Source: Candidatus Gastranaerophilales bacterium
GTDB taxonomy: Bacteria; Cyanobacteriota; Vampirovibrionia; Gastranaerophilales; Gastranaerophilaceae
Direction of reading: 5' to 3'
Length of the DNA stretch: 64,000 nt
NCBI GenBank assembly: GCA_944324285.1
Contig: CALUVR010000007.1
Span: 1 to 64,000, forward strand
Every line of letters begins with the position of its first letter. Position 1 is the stretch's first letter. Position numbers and translations under genes: made by a program. Below, piece by piece: positions 22,754-42,553 of the stretch. Under the pieces are notes generated by a model. It was not told the DNA's origin. It made no database searches and worked only from the letters and a program-made list of their open reading frames with translations.

Positions 22754-23659
22754 TTACTGCAGCCTGCGTTTTAATTCATACTTAACATCCGACAACGGAC
22801 CGTTGTTCGGGGTTCTCACTGTGTTAAAATAATTCCTTGCATAGACAAACGGATATTTCGGAATCCAGCCGAGTTTAAAGAAAATTGTAACCGTATCCGC
22901 TCCCTGTGACAACATAAGTTCGTCAATTGTTTTTTCATGCGCCGGGGAAATTGACGAGAAAATTTTCAGCAGGTAATCAGTAAACGTTACGCTGTAATAA
23001 CCTGTTGCAGTTCCCGGTTTTGCAATAATTTCCGAAATCCTAAAATTTTCATTACCCTTAATATTTTGAACATCTTTTGGCAGAGTAAGTGTTTCTCCGC
23101 GGGTCTGTTCAATTTCGTACCATTGACCGTTATAGTTTATCCTCATCATATTTGCCTGAGGCATATAAATATCGTCGAATTTATTTTCAAGAATAGTGTT
23201 GCCTTCCATATCAACAATGCCGTATTTAAAATCCTTACAGGTCAAAAGCATTCCGCCGAAAAGTAAATCTATTGAAGAATATTCCCGCGGCAAAATCTCC
23301 TTTCCTTTATCATCGTAAAGTGCATATTTACTGCCGCTTCCGATTTTTAAATATTTGCCGAGAACTCTTTCCGCGTGGCTGTATTTTATAGGGACAAGAA
23401 TATTCCCCTGATTATCCATCATACCGAATTTGCTTTTCTTCTGCACAATAAATGATGAATCCCCGAGAAGTATCATCTTTTTGTATTCAGGTTCAACAAT
23501 AACCGTATCGTCGCAGCTTTTTAACCCGAAAAGTCCTTCTTCAGCATCTTTATAAACTTTGACGCACGCATTTTCCGAAACCGAAGCCGTCTGAGTTTCC
23601 GCTAAAACAAGATTTTGACAAACCAGAATTAAACCTATAACCAGTAAAAACTTCTTCAT
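22754..23659 (-). CDS. Exported WG-repeat protein
   Basis: The 301-residue protein has a signal peptide (KKFLLVIGLILVCQNLVLA). Residues about 40-185 hold repeats of the WG type, with FGLKSCDDTVIVEPEYKKM, FGMMDNQGNILVPIKYSHA, YALYDDKGKEILPREYSSI and YGIVDMEGNTILENKFDDI as four units. Such repeats form beta-propeller-like surfaces and are usually of unknown function. The last 100 residues are a separate domain. The ATG at 23659 has no Shine-Dalgarno sequence and sits six bases after TG-T-TATTAT. Confidence 0.85.
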   Translation of the reverse strand: MKKFLLVIGLILVCQNLVLAETQTASVSENACVKVYKDAEEGLFGLKSCDDTVIVEPEYKKMILLGDSSFIVQKKSKFGMMDNQGNILVPIKYSHAERVLGKYLKIGSGSKYALYDDKGKEILPREYSSIDLLFGGMLLTCKDFKYGIVDMEGNTILENKFDDIYMPQANMMRINYNGQWYEIEQTRGETLTLPKDVQNIKGNENFRISEIIAKPGTATGYYSVTFTDYLLKIFSSISPAHEKTIDELMLSQGADTVTIFFKLGWIPKYPFVYARNYFNTVRTPNNGPLSDVKYELKRRLQ

Positions 23660-27137: not shown

Positions 27138-28031
27138 AAATTAGGAGTGTGAAAGACCGGATTTCCAGCCTTTTAAAAAAGTGAATGGTGAATGGTGAAT
27201 GGTGAGGAGTTCAACAAAAATTAGATCCTTCACTCTTCACTCATTACGCTTCATATTCCAAAAGCTGGATTCTTTCGGGCTTAGCCCTCAGAATGACGTA
27301 AATTTTCCTTAGTGCCTCAGTTGCGCATGTATGCCCAACCTACTTAGTGCCTCAGTACCTTAGTATCTTCTCTTTGTCCCCTGTCCAGCAAGGGGCAGAG
27401 GGATAGGATTTGCCTCCCTTTATAAGGGAGGTGGCGCGCTAGCGCCGGAGGGTTTTCTCTTTTACCCCCTCACCCCAGCCTTTGTAGATTTTTGTTGGGC
27501 AAGTATGCCCAACCTACTTAGTGCTTTCAAGGGGAATTTTTTTGTCATTGCGAGCGGTAGCGAAGCAATCCAGCCTTTTGAGAAGTGAAGCGGGAAGAGT
27601 GAGGGGTGAAGGGTTCTACAATAATATGTCCTTCTTTATTCGTTCAACCATTCACCGTCCAACTTTTCTAATACATTTCATTTACCTCCTCACCCCAGCC
27701 CCTCTCCCTCAAGGGGAGAGGGGAGGTAGGATTTCCCCCCTTGTAAAGGGGGGATTAAGGGGAGATTTTGCGTCATTGCGAGGCGTTAGCCGAAGCAATC
27801 CAGCCTTTTTGCTTCTCTTTGTAAGGTGGTATGTCTTAATGCACCCCACTTATTGCCCTAGATTTTTGTTGGGCAAGTATGCCCAACCTACTTAGCGCCC
27901 AAGTGCCTTAGTATCTTAGTATCTTCTCTTTTACCTCTCACCCAGCCTTTGTAGATTTTTGTTGGGCAGGTATGCCCAACCTACTCAGTGCCTTAGTATC
28001 TTCTCTTTGTCCCCTCTCCATCCGGTCAAAA
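27138..28031. repeat. Long array of palindromic intergenic repeats
   Basis: This 894-base gap has no convincing gene. It holds four copies of the GTTGGGCA/TGCCCAAC palindrome (27321, 27494, 27868 and 27961, some variant), two GTCATTGCGAG modules (about 27543 and 27773), one AAAGCTGGATTCTTTCGGGC module (about 27261-27297), a CTCCCTTTATAAGGGAG hairpin near 27414 and GTGAATGGTGA arms at 27181-27245. The phrase CTTAGTGCCTCAGTACCTTAG recurs between copies in shortened forms. The region separates the L,D-transpeptidase and HD genes, which converge. Confidence 0.7.
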
Positions 28032-28838: not shown

Positions 28839-29003
28839 AATTACACCAATTTTAAAATATTTCTATCTATATAATAACCCATAATAAAATTAATTTCTAC
28901 AGCAAATTCGAAATTTTAAGCTTTATACTCAGGATAATGCAAAAATTTTAAAAGAGAACTGCAATAAAAATAACCGTTTAAATTTATTCCGCTTTATTGT
29001 ATG

Positions 29004-29020
29004 TATAATAAATACAAGGA
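29004..29020 (+). promoter_or_regulatory. -10 and Shine-Dalgarno of the Mrr-STAND gene
   Basis: TATAAT at 29004-29009 is followed by AAGGAG (29016-29021 region) and ATG at 29028, giving a leader of about 12-15 bases. No good -35 is seen. Confidence 0.45.
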
Positions 29021-29027
29021 GTAAATA

Positions 29028-31256
29028 ATGTACACTTTTGAAACATTATCGCCAAACGATTTTGAAATATTAACGCGCGACCTGCTGCAAAAAGAATTGT
29101 CGCTAACCCTTGAATCCTTCAAATCCGGCAGGGATAACGGCATTGATTTAAGATACTCTCAAAACAAAGAAAATGATATTATTATCCAGTGCAAACATTA
29201 TCAAGGTTCAACCTTCAACGATTTAATCAAGACAATGAAAAGGGAAGTTGAAAAGATTAAAGAATTATCCCCTGAAAGGTATATCCTTGTAACCTCTTTA
29301 CCGCTAACACCAAAGAACAAAGAGAAAATCATTGAAATCTGCGAGCCATATATTACAAGAAATTCCGATATATATTCTCAAAACGATATAAATAACCTGC
29401 TCCAAAAGTTTCCGGAAGTAGAAAAAAATACATTTAAACTCTGGATGACAAGTACAAATGTCCTTGAGAGATTATTTCATTCGGGGACATATAATAAATC
29501 CGAATTCAAACTGGAAAATATTAAAGAAAAAATCAAAATATTTGTCCCTAACCCGAGTTTAGATAAAGCAAATAAGATACTTGAAGAAAATAATTTTGTG
29601 GTTATATCGGGCGCCCCGGGCGTCGGGAAAACGACTCTTGCGGATATGATAATCTGGCAATATGTTTCACAGGGCTATGAATTTATCAACGTCACGGACA
29701 ACATCAATGAAGCTGTCAACGTCTACAAACGCGACGAAAACTGTAAACAAATATTTTATTATGACGACTTTTTGGGAGAAACCAATCTTGCTAAAAACGA
29801 AGATTCAGACCTTATACTGTTTATCAAACAGATAAACAAAGATAAAAATAAAAAACTCGTACTCGCAACAAGAGAATATATTCTCCAGCAGACAAAGTTA
29901 AGTTCCGAGAAAATTGATTATTTTGAATTTAAAAAATGTATAATAGATTTGAAGTCGTATTCAAATTTGATTAAAGCGGAAATTTTATACAATCATCTTT
30001 ATTTTTCAAAACTGCCGGAAGAATATATCCAATCAATTATTTCTAACGGAAACTACGTTTCAATAATAAATCACGACAATTACAATCCGCGTATTATTGA
30101 ATACATGACAAAACCCAAAATTCTTGAATATGTCAAAGCGGAAAATTATTTCAATGAATTTATGAATAATCTGAATAATCCGGAAAATATATGGTCCCAC
30201 GCATTTGAAAATCACCTTAACAATAAATCAAGAAGTATTTTATTTGCATTAACAACCACACAGTATATATCTTCCTACTTCGGTAATACAGACAGAATAA
30301 AAGAAACTGCAAAAAAAATCTGCCGGAAATTATACTCGGAAAATATCACCGATTTAGATTTCAAAAAAAATCTTAAAATATTAAACGGAGATTTTATTGA
30401 TATTAAGGGAAAAAATAAACTTTCCTTCTCCAACCCTTCAGTAATTGATTTTCTGGAGAATTATATTTTAAATAATGATCTGATACCGGATTTTATAGAA
30501 CTTTCAGAACAATATGAACATATAAACTGGTTATACAGAACATATTTTCAGAACAAAAGCGCCTCAGCACAGAATATCAATATTATGTTTGCAAAATTGA
30601 AAGAGCTGAATAATAATCAGTTTAGTACCAGATATATAGATTTACTTCTTCAATTAATTATCAGCAGTAATGACACGACAAAAATTCCGCAAATTAAACC
30701 CGAACTTAATGAACTTATAAAAAGGAATTACAGACCCATAATACTTGAAAATATACTGAAAAATATTTCCCATGATATATTTTCCGAAAGTAAAATTATT
30801 AAAGATTTTGCTTCAACCGTTAAAGAAAAAATCATTGACTATGTAAACCTTAATGATGATGCCGAAGAATATTTGGTTATTTGGGATTTTATTGAGAGTT
30901 TTAAAGAGCTGTGGGAAGAGGAACATATTAATAAAATTTATGATGATGTCAACTTATGTTACGAGGATCTTGTTGATGCTACAATTGAAATTCATAAAGA
31001 AGAAGCTGATGCTGACGGATTGTATTTTGAGATTGAAAAATTCCAGCAGCTGATAGATAAATACAACCTGCCTTATGATACGATTAAAATTGAAGAAGCG
31101 GTTGAAGAATTGGAAATGAAAGAGGAGGAATGTGAATATAGCAGCAATCTGAATTCCGTAAGTACAATAAACTCCGGGCTGCAAAATACAGTTCAGGAAA
31201 GCATAAAAATAATAAACTTATTTGACTCACTGAATGAAAGGTATACCAATTCTTGA
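29028..31256 (+). CDS. Mrr-type nuclease fused to a STAND-like NTPase; candidate phage-defence protein
   Basis: The 742-residue protein joins two domains. Residues 1-115 are a PD-(D/E)xK restriction-endonuclease domain of Mrr type: E13, D40 in GRDNGIDLR and the Q54-x-K56 of IIIQCKHY. Residues about 160-480 are a P-loop NTPase with Walker A GAPGVGKTT (195-203) and a Walker B-like IFYYDDFLGE near 245, closest in pattern to nSTAND3 NTPases. The remaining 250 residues are helical and acidic and have no repeat I recognise; they are the expected sensor part. Nuclease-STAND fusions act as single-gene anti-phage sensors (Avs and relatives), so this is a defence candidate. Base composition is AT-richer than its neighbours (impression only). 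Confidence 0.82.
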   Translation: MYTFETLSPNDFEILTRDLLQKELSLTLESFKSGRDNGIDLRYSQNKENDIIIQCKHYQGSTFNDLIKTMKREVEKIKELSPERYILVTSLPLTPKNKEKIIEICEPYITRNSDIYSQNDINNLLQKFPEVEKNTFKLWMTSTNVLERLFHSGTYNKSEFKLENIKEKIKIFVPNPSLDKANKILEENNFVVISGAPGVGKTTLADMIIWQYVSQGYEFINVTDNINEAVNVYKRDENCKQIFYYDDFLGETNLAKNEDSDLILFIKQINKDKNKKLVLATREYILQQTKLSSEKIDYFEFKKCIIDLKSYSNLIKAEILYNHLYFSKLPEEYIQSIISNGNYVSIINHDNYNPRIIEYMTKPKILEYVKAENYFNEFMNNLNNPENIWSHAFENHLNNKSRSILFALTTTQYISSYFGNTDRIKETAKKICRKLYSENITDLDFKKNLKILNGDFIDIKGKNKLSFSNPSVIDFLENYILNNDLIPDFIELSEQYEHINWLYRTYFQNKSASAQNINIMFAKLKELNNNQFSTRYIDLLLQLIISSNDTTKIPQIKPELNELIKRNYRPIILENILKNISHDIFSESKIIKDFASTVKEKIIDYVNLNDDAEEYLVIWDFIESFKELWEEEHINKIYDDVNLCYEDLVDATIEIHKEEADADGLYFEIEKFQQLIDKYNLPYDTIKIEEAVEELEMKEEECEYSSNLNSVSTINSGLQNTVQESIKIINLFDSLNERYTNS

Positions 31257-31281
31257 CAGAAGATTATTTTTATCCTTAAAT
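31253..31281 (+). promoter_or_regulatory. Promoter of the HAD-kinase gene pair
   Basis: TTGACA (31253-31258), exactly 17 bases, then TTAAAT (31276-31281). The -35 overlaps the stop codon of the Mrr-STAND gene. AAGGGG precedes the GTG start at 31315. Confidence 0.5.
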
Positions 31282-31314
31282 AATTGTATAGATGGTCTTT
31301 AAGGGGTTTTTAGC

Positions 31315-32829
31315 GTGCGAATTTCCGGCATTAGAAATCAAACATCGTTTACTGCAGGCAAGGTCAATTTATACACGGATTTTGACGGTACATATTGTCC
31401 AGCAAAACATTCCACCCTCCACGACCCGAATGCAAACGGGTTTATGAATGAATATTGCAACAGGATAAATAAATTCTGGCAGACAACAAACGGGGATGTT
31501 CATTTTAATATCACAACAGGCAGAACCCTCGGTGAGTATGAATCTATTTCCTGGTTATTAAAAATGCGCAATTTCAGGCTGCCGTTTCCTGAAACCATAA
31601 TTACAAAAGACGGAAGCGATAGGTTTGTCAAAACCGGAACCGATACCGATTTTTATGAACAGGGAAAATTCCCTTTCAACTACAATTCACCGCAAAAAGA
31701 AAAAGAAACCGAGATTAAAAATTTAACCAACTGGGACGGCGATAAAATTCACGCGAAATTAAAGCGTCTGGCAAACAAATATAAAATAAGATTAGTGGAA
31801 GCAGATTCCGAAAACGCAGTTTCTGATTACGGTGAACGGTCTTTATTCAGCAGCGGGAAACTAGATCCTGACGACTGGAAAAAACTTCCATCCCAAAACG
31901 GTCAAATTACAGAACACACACCCCCGGTTGCGGATTATGTACTGGGTTCGAGAAACGACGGTAAATTAAAATTCAATCTTATTTTCCCGCCGGATTACGG
32001 TTTTTGTCCGGAACGAAACTGGATTTATGACAACATAGTTACCGATTTAAAAGGGTATTTAGATTCAAAAAAAATCCGCTACCACATGGAGTGGGAACCT
32101 GCATCCGATTCCAACCATCACAGAATTTCCTGTTCTATTACGCCTCTGTTTGAAAACGGTGCTCTAACAAAATTATACGACACAAAAAAAGCCTTGAAAG
32201 AAGCTGTGAAAAACAGCGATATAGTAATCGCTGCAGGCGACGGCTCAAATGATTTTGATATGCTCAACCCTCTTGGCTATCTGGAGGAAGATTTTATAAA
32301 AGAATGCGAAAAAAACTCCTCTCATAAAGAATTTTACTCAAAAGATATCACTCAAAGACTTGAAGATTTAAAAAGAATTTATAACGGAGAAAACAGCGAA
32401 TACATAAACGGACTGCGCAAAGAATTAACACAAAACGGTTATCTCAAACAACTGGAAGATTTGCCGATTTACAGTATCGTAATCAGGAAACAAAATTCCA
32501 AAATGCAGCCGCTAATCGCTACGTTTTCACGCATTAATAAAGTTATCGTAACGGAAAACGGTTCTCTTGATGAAGGGATAAAAAAAATTGTCAAACTGCA
32601 CGCAGAAAAGAATAAAATATTCAAAACAGAAATGTCAGAAAAATTTAAAACTTTAATCTTCGGAGCAAAAAAAAAATCCGCCAAAACTGTTAACTATTAT
32701 AAGATAGGAGCGGGAATACTGCTCGCGGGATTAATTGGATGCATGGGATTTAAATATCTCAATAAAAAATCAGAGGAAAAAGATAATGAAAATAATACCG
32801 GTAATAAATCATCAAATTCAAAATCATAA
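31315..32829 (+). CDS. HAD-superfamily phosphatase with C-terminal membrane anchor
   Basis: The 504-residue protein starts at GTG 31315 after AAGGGG. HAD motif I is D22-F-D24-G-T in YTDFDGTYCP, and motif IV is GDGSNDFDM around residues 308-316; the Cof/sucrose-phosphatase type cap lies between. Near the end a single hydrophobic helix (IGAGILLAGLIGCMGFKYL, about 463-481) is followed by a charged Lys/Asn/Ser tail. The leader MRISGIRNQTSFTAGKV has no signal peptide but resembles leaders of other proteins here. The next gene, a kinase-like protein, overlaps it by 44 bases, so the two products are probably made together. Confidence 0.82.
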   Translation: MRISGIRNQTSFTAGKVNLYTDFDGTYCPAKHSTLHDPNANGFMNEYCNRINKFWQTTNGDVHFNITTGRTLGEYESISWLLKMRNFRLPFPETIITKDGSDRFVKTGTDTDFYEQGKFPFNYNSPQKEKETEIKNLTNWDGDKIHAKLKRLANKYKIRLVEADSENAVSDYGERSLFSSGKLDPDDWKKLPSQNGQITEHTPPVADYVLGSRNDGKLKFNLIFPPDYGFCPERNWIYDNIVTDLKGYLDSKKIRYHMEWEPASDSNHHRISCSITPLFENGALTKLYDTKKALKEAVKNSDIVIAAGDGSNDFDMLNPLGYLEEDFIKECEKNSSHKEFYSKDITQRLEDLKRIYNGENSEYINGLRKELTQNGYLKQLEDLPIYSIVIRKQNSKMQPLIATFSRINKVIVTENGSLDEGIKKIVKLHAEKNKIFKTEMSEKFKTLIFGAKKKSAKTVNYYKIGAGILLAGLIGCMGFKYLNKKSEEKDNENNTGNKSSNSKS

Positions 32830-34489
32830 ATCTTCTCAAACACATCAGGTAAATTTTCAATCCTCATACTTTGAAGATTTTAATAACAAATACAATCCTA
32901 TTAAAACTCTTTTACGGAAAGAAATAGATGAATTTATTGAAACCGGCGCTAATGCAACAAAACTAGGAGAAGGTATAGGCGGTGAAACTTACCGGTTCAA
33001 TCATCCCCGGCTTGGAAATATAGTTATAAAAAAAAATAAAACCGGATTTTCAGACGACTATCTGAAAGAATACAAAAATCTGACACAAATTCCGACAGAT
33101 ATTATCGGCGGACAGGAAGCTGTCGCAAGAGTAAATTCATCAGGAATGCATTATCTCGTATCAACACTGGTTAGCGGGAAAAGCGTTTCAAAAACTAACC
33201 GATATACGGAAGAACATTTAAAAACTCTTTTTAATAAAATGTTTGAACTTGATAAAGTCGGGATTTACCACGGGGATTTAAACGGAAAAAATATCCTGAT
33301 AGATGATAACGGAGCCGTTAATTTTATAGATTATCAGTGGACGGAAAAGGTAGATAAAATAAATTTTTTTGACAGTAAAAAAAGTCAAAAAATCTTACTT
33401 CCTATTGCAGAATTTCCTGAAAATGCCCAGATGTTTGAAATGGCGTCAATTCCGCATTATATAGATAGTTTTGATACCCTTGCAGAAAAAGAAACTTTCT
33501 TAAAAATATACTTACAAGCTAAATCAAATTACCATGAAAAACGGTATGAATATATCAAAAAAATTACAAAAAATTGGTTCTACACAAGTGAAAAAGAACG
33601 AATAAAACAAGCCCTTGATTCAGAAAAAGCAAAGGCTGCTGTATATAAAAATCCTGACAAAAATATTTTAAAATTAGAAATGAAAAAATTCCAATTTTTA
33701 TCGGACTACCGCGACGCCTATTCCCATGTAGACCCGAATCTTCCGTCGAGAAATATTATTGCATCGCCATCCTCTTACCTTTGCTCAATAAGTTCAATAC
33801 AGGATTACAGAAAAGAAGTTATGCGGCAGTTAAGTTCAAGTTATACAAAATCAAAATCCGACTATCTGAAATCAATGTTAAACTACGGTGATTACTGGTA
33901 TAACAACCTAATCTCATATACCAAAGACACTTACGACTATATAATCAGAATGACCAGAAAAACCAAAAATCGCGGGGAAGATACTCACAAATTTTACATA
34001 AATGAAAGAAATCCCAGAATATTCACCCCCAATTTAGATTTGCTTGAAAGCATGGGAGAAAACTATAAACCTTTATACGAAGCAGGTTTAGATTCGCCTT
34101 ATTTAATGACATATAAATTACAAAGCATGTATGAAGAACCGATAAGAGTATTGGATTCCGCATTGAGCGATTCCAAATCCATTCACCAAATTGAAAAAGT
34201 GAAAAGTTTGTTTAATAAAACGAGAACCACTACATTAAATAAAAGGCTTTTAGACACCCTGAATGCCTCAGAGCTTGCAGTATTGAAGATAAGAGAATTC
34301 AGAGGATATGTAAAACACAATTTTTCATCATATATTGCAAACAGAACCCTCAATGAAATGCTGGAAAATGCCGTAAACTTTTCTCAGGAACTATTTGGAA
34401 GCATTTTTACCGGACTTCAATCATTGAACGCAAAAAACATAACTGTAAAAGGTTATGAAGAAATGCGAAAATTTATTTATAAGATATAG
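32786..34489 (+). CDS. Protein-kinase-fold protein coupled to the HAD phosphatase
   Basis: I chose ATG 32786 with GAGG at 32773 (567 residues). Kinase-fold motifs are visible: a glycine-rich loop LGEGIGGETYRF (60-71), K82 in IVIKKN, the catalytic loop H162-G-D164-L-N-G-K-N169 and a DFG-like IDYQ near 182. HGDLNxxN with IDYQ is typical of atypical or antibiotic-kinase-like folds and of some bacterial effector kinases, rather than canonical Ser/Thr kinases. The C-terminal 350 residues are helical and unrecognised. It overlaps the HAD gene by 44 bases, suggesting a kinase/phosphatase pair. The leader includes HQVNFQSSYF. Confidence 0.8.
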   Translation: MKIIPVINHQIQNHKSSQTHQVNFQSSYFEDFNNKYNPIKTLLRKEIDEFIETGANATKLGEGIGGETYRFNHPRLGNIVIKKNKTGFSDDYLKEYKNLTQIPTDIIGGQEAVARVNSSGMHYLVSTLVSGKSVSKTNRYTEEHLKTLFNKMFELDKVGIYHGDLNGKNILIDDNGAVNFIDYQWTEKVDKINFFDSKKSQKILLPIAEFPENAQMFEMASIPHYIDSFDTLAEKETFLKIYLQAKSNYHEKRYEYIKKITKNWFYTSEKERIKQALDSEKAKAAVYKNPDKNILKLEMKKFQFLSDYRDAYSHVDPNLPSRNIIASPSSYLCSISSIQDYRKEVMRQLSSSYTKSKSDYLKSMLNYGDYWYNNLISYTKDTYDYIIRMTRKTKNRGEDTHKFYINERNPRIFTPNLDLLESMGENYKPLYEAGLDSPYLMTYKLQSMYEEPIRVLDSALSDSKSIHQIEKVKSLFNKTRTTTLNKRLLDTLNASELAVLKIREFRGYVKHNFSSYIANRTLNEMLENAVNFSQELFGSIFTGLQSLNAKNITVKGYEEMRKFIYKI

Positions 34490-41839: not shown

Positions 41840-42553
41840 ACAGCAGAAAAAGGGAAGTATCTTAGTTGGGCAGGTATGCCCAACTTACAGTACCTCCCTT
41901 GTAAAGGGAGGTGGCGCGAAGCGCCGGAGGGATTGTGTTTTCCTGTCCCTCTCCCCTTGAGAGGATGGCAAGACCGGGTAAGGGATAACAATAAAGGAGT
42001 GAGAACGACTACGTCATTGCGAGCGACAGCGAAGCAATCCAGCCTTTTAAAAAAAGTGAGTGGTGAGTTGTGAGTAGTGAAGGGTTCAACAAGAATTAGT
42101 TCCTTCACGCTTCACTCATTACTCTTAAGCCAAAAGCTGGATTCTTTCGGGCTTCGCCCTCAGAATGACGTAAAAAATTCCCTTAGTACCTTATTAGTTG
42201 GGCAGGTATGCTCAACCGACAGTACTTTTCTGTCATTGCGAGGCTTTAGCCGAAGCAATCCAGCCTTTTAAAAAAAGTGAGTGGTGAGTTGTGAGTAGTG
42301 AAGGGTTCAACAAGAATTAGTTCCTTCACGCTTCACTCATTACTCTTAAGCCAAAAGCTGGATTCTTTCGGGCTTCGCCCTCAGAATGACGTAAAAAATT
42401 CCCTTAGTACCTTATTAGTTGGGCAGGTATGCTCAACCGACAGTAATCTGCCGGCGCCATCCGCTCGCTATCCGGATTTGTTCGCTTCGCTCACTTCATC
42501 CCCTCTCACAAAACAATTCACCGAATTGTTTTGTTCGGCAGAGTGCAAATCCG
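41840..42553. repeat. Palindromic repeat array between pgk and prs
   Basis: The 778-base gap 41776-42553 holds three copies of GTTGGGCAGGTATGCCCAAC (41865-41884, and variants with CTCAAC at 42197-42216 and 42418-42437), two GTCATTGCGAG modules, two AAAGCTGGATTCTTTCGGGC modules, a CTCCCTTGTAAAGGGAG hairpin near 41888 and GTGAGTGGTGA arms. Open frames here come from the repeats and are not genes. Confidence 0.75.
42030..42445. repeat. 195-bp direct duplication
   Basis: Bases 42030-42224 are repeated without visible change at 42251-42445 (period 221). The unit contains one complete set of palindromic modules ending in the GTTGGGCAGG palindrome. Perfect identity points to a recent tandem duplication. 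Confidence 0.85.

Follow-up and report, generated by a model that had tools for sequence, protein, structure and literature searches.

A compact nuclease–STAND NTPase protein of the PDC-S73 family as a candidate Avs-like phage sensor

A single gene coding for a nuclease joined to a STAND NTPase

The locus described here raises the question of whether one gene may serve as a complete phage defence system, and if so, what kind of sensor its product would be. The 742-codon gene comes from a Gastranaerophilales-like genome of 2.03 Mb in 55 contigs, that of a gut relative of the cyanobacteria, and was found in a window of 64,000 nucleotides, by which we mean the whole stretch of DNA that was analysed. 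A preliminary description, made from the sequence alone, had proposed a single-gene defence candidate in which a PD-(D/E)xK nuclease domain is followed by a P-loop NTPase and a helical C-terminus of 250 residues. The parts of the gene, as we now see them, are given in Table 1.

Table 1. Parts of the gene and of its start signal, with positions in the window; invariance refers to an alignment of 71 non-redundant homologues
Feature	Position	Strand	Remarks
Whole gene	29028..31256	+	742 aa, ATG start; Mrr nuclease, nSTAND3 NTPase, helical arm, C-terminal tail; PADLOC PDC-S73
Ribosome-binding site AAGGAG	29016..29021	+	Read from the sequence, 6 bases 5' of the ATG
Mrr-type PD-(D/E)xK nuclease, residues 1-105	29028..29342	+	PF04471; E13, D36, D40, Q54, K56 invariant
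Conserved helical linker, residues 106-171	29343..29540	+	K137, L138, W139 invariant; nuclease and linker resemble the Aga N-terminal module
nSTAND3 NTPase, residues 172-326	29541..30005	+	PF20720; Walker A 195-203, Walker B D246/D247, R282
Helical and winged-helix-like STAND end, residues 327-480	30006..30467	+	H349..NPR(I/V) and NPS..DF conserved; P354, R355, P470, S471 invariant
All-helical, fast-diverging arm, presumed sensor, residues 481-705	30468..31142	+	0.75 bits over 481-720; pLDDT about 92
Low-confidence linker and conserved tail helix, residues 706-742	31143..31253	+	Motif residues I728, L731, F732, L735

Both enzymatic domains were recognised by Pfam. Mrr_cat (PF04471) covers residues 5-99 with an E-value of 1.4e-8 and 35.3 bits against a curated cut-off of 21, while nSTAND3 (PF20720) covers residues 172-326 with an E-value of 1.9e-51 and 174.2 bits against a cut-off of 27.2. 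In the alignment of 71 homologues, the catalytic set E13, D36, D40, Q54 and K56 shows no variation, nor do G195, G198, G200, K201, D246, D247 and R282 of the NTPase part, and beyond the NTPase core P354, R355, P470 and S471 are likewise invariant. Such invariance indicates that the residues picked out earlier (E13, D40 and Q54-x-K56 in the nuclease, and the P-loop GAPGVGKTT at 195-203, with its glycines and lysine) were the right ones and that their presence is far from chance; D36, missing from the earlier list, belongs with them. Both the Walker A motif GAPGVGKTT and the Walker B motif FYYDD, as required of an nSTAND3 member, are present and conserved, and the nuclease part combines a profile score above cut-off with the E/D...QxK set of Mrr-type PD-(D/E)xK enzymes, cleavage itself being predicted. 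In an AlphaFold2 model, the N-terminal elements come in the order helix-strand-strand-helix-strand-helix, which is the one expected of this nuclease fold. The N-terminus, which could have turned out to lie outside the PD-(D/E)xK folds, is thus placed inside them by Pfam, by the invariant residues and by the predicted order of elements.

The protein matches an already listed candidate family

Judged by its profile match, the protein belongs to PDC-S73, a candidate family that PADLOC already lists, and is not an unrecognised system. In PADLOC-DB 2.0.0, residues 2-732 align with positions 4-749 of the 752 positions of the PDC-S73 profile (E 3.2e-165), and ten homologues from several phyla all have PDC-S73 as their best match. 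PDC stands for 'phage defence candidate' (PMC11514479). With this full-length match, we see no structural difference between the protein and the family, which is itself a bioinformatic single-gene candidate only and which was present in PADLOC-DB 2023. The proposal of a single-gene defence candidate of the Avs/STAND type holds as far as the nuclease, the STAND NTPase, the divergent arm, the closest folds (Avs4, Avs5 and Avs3) and the defence-island, prophage and plasmid contexts are concerned, but the gene cannot be called unlisted. A literature search returned no paper naming PDC-S73 and no test of the family. The family is widespread, and as the protein combines a compact nuclease-switch-sensor chain of 742 residues with a strong fold match to Avs4 and Avs5, we regard it as a tractable case for studying what NLR-like bacterial receptors sense outside model bacteria.

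Another PADLOC profile, Aga_TIR-PNTD1-PNTD2, matches residues 2-184, that is the nuclease and the linker, with an E-value of 3.8e-47. This stretch corresponds to the N-terminal part of the profiles of argonaute-associated Aga proteins with REase/TIR-PNTD modules, whereas the match stops ahead of the NTPase and the sensor arm. The extent of the match suggests that nuclease plus linker is a portable module common to this protein and the Aga proteins.

The closest folds are those of Avs proteins

The full-length AlphaFold2 model was built from the 71-row alignment and reached a mean pLDDT of 90.2 and a pTM of 0.79. When it was compared with the PDB by Foldseek, a check that the preliminary description had called for, the best match was the Avs4-portal structure 8dgf (E 4.2e-9, 754 columns), followed by EfAvs5 (9jap, 6.0e-9), the AVAST5 filament (9nc9, 1.5e-7) and Avs3 (8dgc, 2.1e-7), with human SAMD9 and plant NLRs lower in the list. 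TM-scores of the whole chain to the Avs structures are low (0.22-0.38), and the similarity therefore lies in the order of folds and in local structure and does not extend to a single rigid shape. In VIA-align comparisons, the model region of about 150-510 lies near the STAND modules of CED-4 and plant NLRs and near EfAvs5, with Z values of 13-17. A phmmer search of the PDB sequences gave nothing but P-loop noise, and a profile search of the PDB gave P-loops and designed helical repeats.

As far as the predicted fold goes, an Avs-like reading is well supported. The architecture of Avs proteins (effector, STAND NTPase, C-terminal sensor) was found both in the Pfam domains and in the whole-length Foldseek matches to Avs4, Avs5 and Avs3, while none of the profiles of named Avs families was matched, as none of the ten PADLOC families matched by the protein is an Avs model at E <= 1. 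We thus call the protein Avs-like and not Avs, and make no claim of descent from a tested Avs lineage.

Avs4 (8dgf, portal-bound) has the same succession of nuclease, STAND NTPase and C-terminal sensor, but identity to it is 13%, and the Avs4 chain of 1534 aa, with its far larger sensor, compares with 742 aa here; given this difference in size, the ligand need not be portal or terminase. Avs5 (9jap, 9nc9; SIR2-nSTAND3-repeats) shares the nSTAND3 (PF20720) NTPase and a similar length and is the second-best fold match, but its effector is a SIR2 NADase instead of an Mrr nuclease, and it has been solved as a filament.

The C-terminal arm diverges fast

The C-terminal 250 residues, earlier described as unrecognised and helical, indeed match no Pfam family, and two confident models predict them as helical throughout (mean pLDDT 90 in the full model and 91 when the C-terminus was modelled alone). 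It had also been stated that no TPR-like repeat is present there. This is correct at the level of sequence, where Pfam finds nothing, but less so in the model, in which the arm is a stack of about 11 helices with a non-specific likeness to helical-repeat proteins. The C-terminus alone had no match in the PDB at E < 0.001. In VIA-align, Z values reached 10.8 with mitoribosomal helical-repeat proteins, less than the roughly 13 needed for helical repeats; the arm thus appears to be a generic helical one with no specific relative.

Mean conservation is 2.3 bits in residues 1-105, 2.0 in 106-185, 2.1 in 186-330 and 1.7 in 331-480; it falls to 0.75 bits in residues 481-720 and climbs again at the extreme end. 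In comparison with the closest relative (L002), the core is 63% identical and residues 481-720 are 27% identical, and in homologue pairs with 55-65% identity in the core the arm averages 28%. Since arm identity declines smoothly with core identity, fast divergence fits better than swapping of C-terminal domains. Fast divergence is what one would expect of a ligand sensor, which is the role we presume for the arm, and it fits a ligand that varies between phages. The ligand might, as suggested earlier, be a new one.

Homologues are patchy and lie near defence genes

The family is patchy, and it differs from a matched control in its setting, which is that of defence islands, prophages and plasmids. 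The protein occurs in 4 of 191 family genomes and in 7 of 386 phylum genomes. Within the genus, a close copy is present only in the genome from which the window comes, and one genus bin (G445, 8% contamination) holds a divergent copy and a fragment. Eight of 192 order genomes have the nSTAND3 domain, which was not detected in any of 14 control genomes. This distribution speaks against core housekeeping genes, an outcome that would have undermined the defence proposal. A pattern scan of genome contigs found no relatives with the single protein as query; with an alignment query built with close relatives, it found 322 relatives in many phyla, 80 of which were fetched. Homologues were also seen on 16 viral contigs and in 52 plasmid records. 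In a core tree, at least five label changes are needed for Pseudomonadota, which suggests some transfer.

The defence-neighbourhood check, also called for earlier, took in the two nearest ORFs on each side of every homologue. At 1e-20, the 135 ORFs flanking 34 homologues hit 178 PADLOC models, among them Gabija, PARIS AriA, Old, Septu PtuA, DRT, pAgo, Aga, Shedu, type I R-M and PDC-S06. As a control, an identical procedure was applied to 108 ORFs around the EamA transporter genes of 29 of these genomes, which hit 8 models; as many models may describe one protein, 178 against 8 should be read as a contrast in order of magnitude and not as a precise ratio. In the close relative L053, the homologue adjoins a DpnII R-M system and a HamB (Hachiman)-like helicase, and in L056 a nearly identical homologue adjoins related methylases together with Gabija A and B.

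Three observations on individual records may be added. Split or shortened homologues were seen in L018:9001-11338 (a Priestia plasmid), L079, L084 and L111, several being in two frames or cut, and decayed copies are thus not rare; they are usual for costly defence genes. L020 (MT836015.1, 'Bacteriophage sp.') is filed as phage, but the ends of its homologue match those of a homologue found on a plasmid of Pseudomonas fluorescens and in contigs of P. gessardii and P. mandelii; the record may thus not be a phage. On a Prosthecochloris plasmid (L010:5553-8485), the homologue directly follows a diversity-generating retroelement (avd, reverse transcriptase, formylglycine-type proteins).

The gene stands alone, probably at a variable junction

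Ten other ORFs of the window, mostly near neighbours, gave no PADLOC match at 1e-6, and hence the gene stands alone in this genome. In relatives, homology on the left ends at 28850-28908 and homology on the right begins at 31249-31283, with the gene filling the gap. A simple empty site, or a clean insertion, is not supported, as the left and right flanking blocks lie apart in relatives. Given the breaks in flank homology and the lack of defence neighbours among the ten ORFs, it is most likely that the gene was acquired and sits by itself where the sequence forms a variable junction.

Several other features of the surroundings were noted. Interspersed repeat-rich non-coding DNA, e.g. 'cattgcgag...gaagcaatccagcc' and 'ttgggcaagtatgcccaacctact', occupies 27160-28030 and 42010-42444 and recurs in relatives; ORF 27521-27895 is probably a spurious reading of such repeats. 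Downstream, a HAD-like gene (31315-32829) overlaps a kinase-like gene (32735-34489), and the pair occurs together, at different sites, in 3 of 13 genus genomes. Both proteins, like several others of these genomes, have an early 'FTAG/NFQSS'-like stretch, possibly a signal for sorting. The gene at 22754-23659, 5 kb upstream, codes for a protein with beta repeats of the WG type (PF14903, E 2e-12).

A phage sensor is the likely role, and three alternatives are less so

Avs1-4 proteins with nuclease effectors cut phage and host genomes on sensing terminase, portal or another phage protein, and in Avs5 the same nSTAND3 domain works with a SIR2 effector (PMC12931631). We consider it likely that the PDC-S73 protein is a single-gene Avs-like intracellular phage sensor. 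In this scenario the resting protein would be kept inactive, and during infection its divergent helical arm would capture a phage-made protein, allowing the nSTAND3 NTPase to bind ATP and an oligomer to assemble. The oligomer would bring the N-terminal Mrr domains together, and the assembled nucleases might then cleave both cell and phage DNA, so that the infection would be halted and the cell sacrificed. We infer this course of events, from the phage-protein trigger through oligomerisation, DNA cutting and cell death to phage defence, on the basis of what was observed: the domain make-up, the invariant catalytic and NTPase residues, the Avs4/Avs5/Avs3-like fold, fast divergence confined to the arm, patchiness, and the island and mobile context.

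The gene might instead be carried by prophages and plasmids to exclude competitors; it would ward off plasmids or other mobile elements that compete with its carrier, and the arm would sense a replication or transfer protein of theirs. Homologues on 52 plasmid records (30 typed conjugative) and on 16 viral contigs agree with this idea, as do a homologue starting just 3' of repC on a repABC plasmid (L011) and two relatives, L054 and L057, lying beside Mu-like transposition genes and rhuM. However, most fetched homologues are in bacterial genome contigs, often near antiphage systems, and phage-defence genes are as a rule also carried by mobile elements; we thus find a mobile-element guard unlikely. 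Still less probable, in our opinion, is a type IV restriction enzyme, in which Mrr would cut modified DNA directly, with the NTPase powering or licensing the cut and the arm reading DNA or its modification. The Mrr_cat domain would suit such an enzyme, Mrr itself being one, but the NTPase is of the STAND class, nearest to CED-4, plant NLRs, Avs4 and Avs5, and is not a translocase; moreover, a modification reader should be conserved, yet the arm is the part that changes fastest. A non-defence STAND protein, e.g. a switch by which stress would set off DNA cleavage or programmed death in the host, is very improbable, for although STAND proteins have many roles and none of the neighbours tested here is a defence gene, the family is patchy, mobile and island-associated.

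A conserved tail closes the chain

Behind the fast-diverging arm, the protein ends in a near-invariant motif, (D/E)-I-x-x-(L/M)-F-x-(S/T)-L, some form of which occurs in 81 of 82 non-redundant homologues; the loose form is (I/V/L)xx(L/M/I)F, with x(S/T/P)L as the usual continuation. The strict motif is found in 69 of the 82; when the same tails were shuffled 200 times, it turned up in 1.0 of them on average and in no more than 3. Conservation reaches 4.1 bits at F732, 2.9 at L731 and 2.4 at I728. The F sits 3-15 residues from the C-terminal end, and the 40 residues before it are 30% D/E. A sliding-clamp-binding box was considered for this tail and dropped, as Q is rare at the corresponding positions. 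When the whole protein is modelled, the tail helix stands for the most part at a pLDDT of about 90, behind a linker below 50, whereas its pLDDT is about 59-84 when the C-terminus is modelled alone; this hints that the tail packs onto the core.

We tentatively propose that the tail, an acidic stretch followed by (I/V/L)xx(L/M/I)Fx(S/T/P)L, may be a docking peptide that controls the receptor. It could clip onto the protein's own NTPase-nuclease core and keep it off, or else, upon activation, deliver the protein to a host partner that is conserved, with the arm left free to follow phage ligands. If this were true, the PDC-S73 family would share a control element over more than ten phyla, and to our knowledge such an element has not been described for Avs proteins. 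We found no earlier description of the conserved tail; whatever its presumed role, it offers a specific handle on how receptors of this kind are kept inactive or tethered. The motif is missing from two shorter members, L004 and L007, and also from a distant relative, the Spirosoma plasmid protein WP_232563758 (25% identity), in which the order of regions is the same over residues 2-485; the tail is thus characteristic of the PDC-S73 clade but is not shared by every relative.
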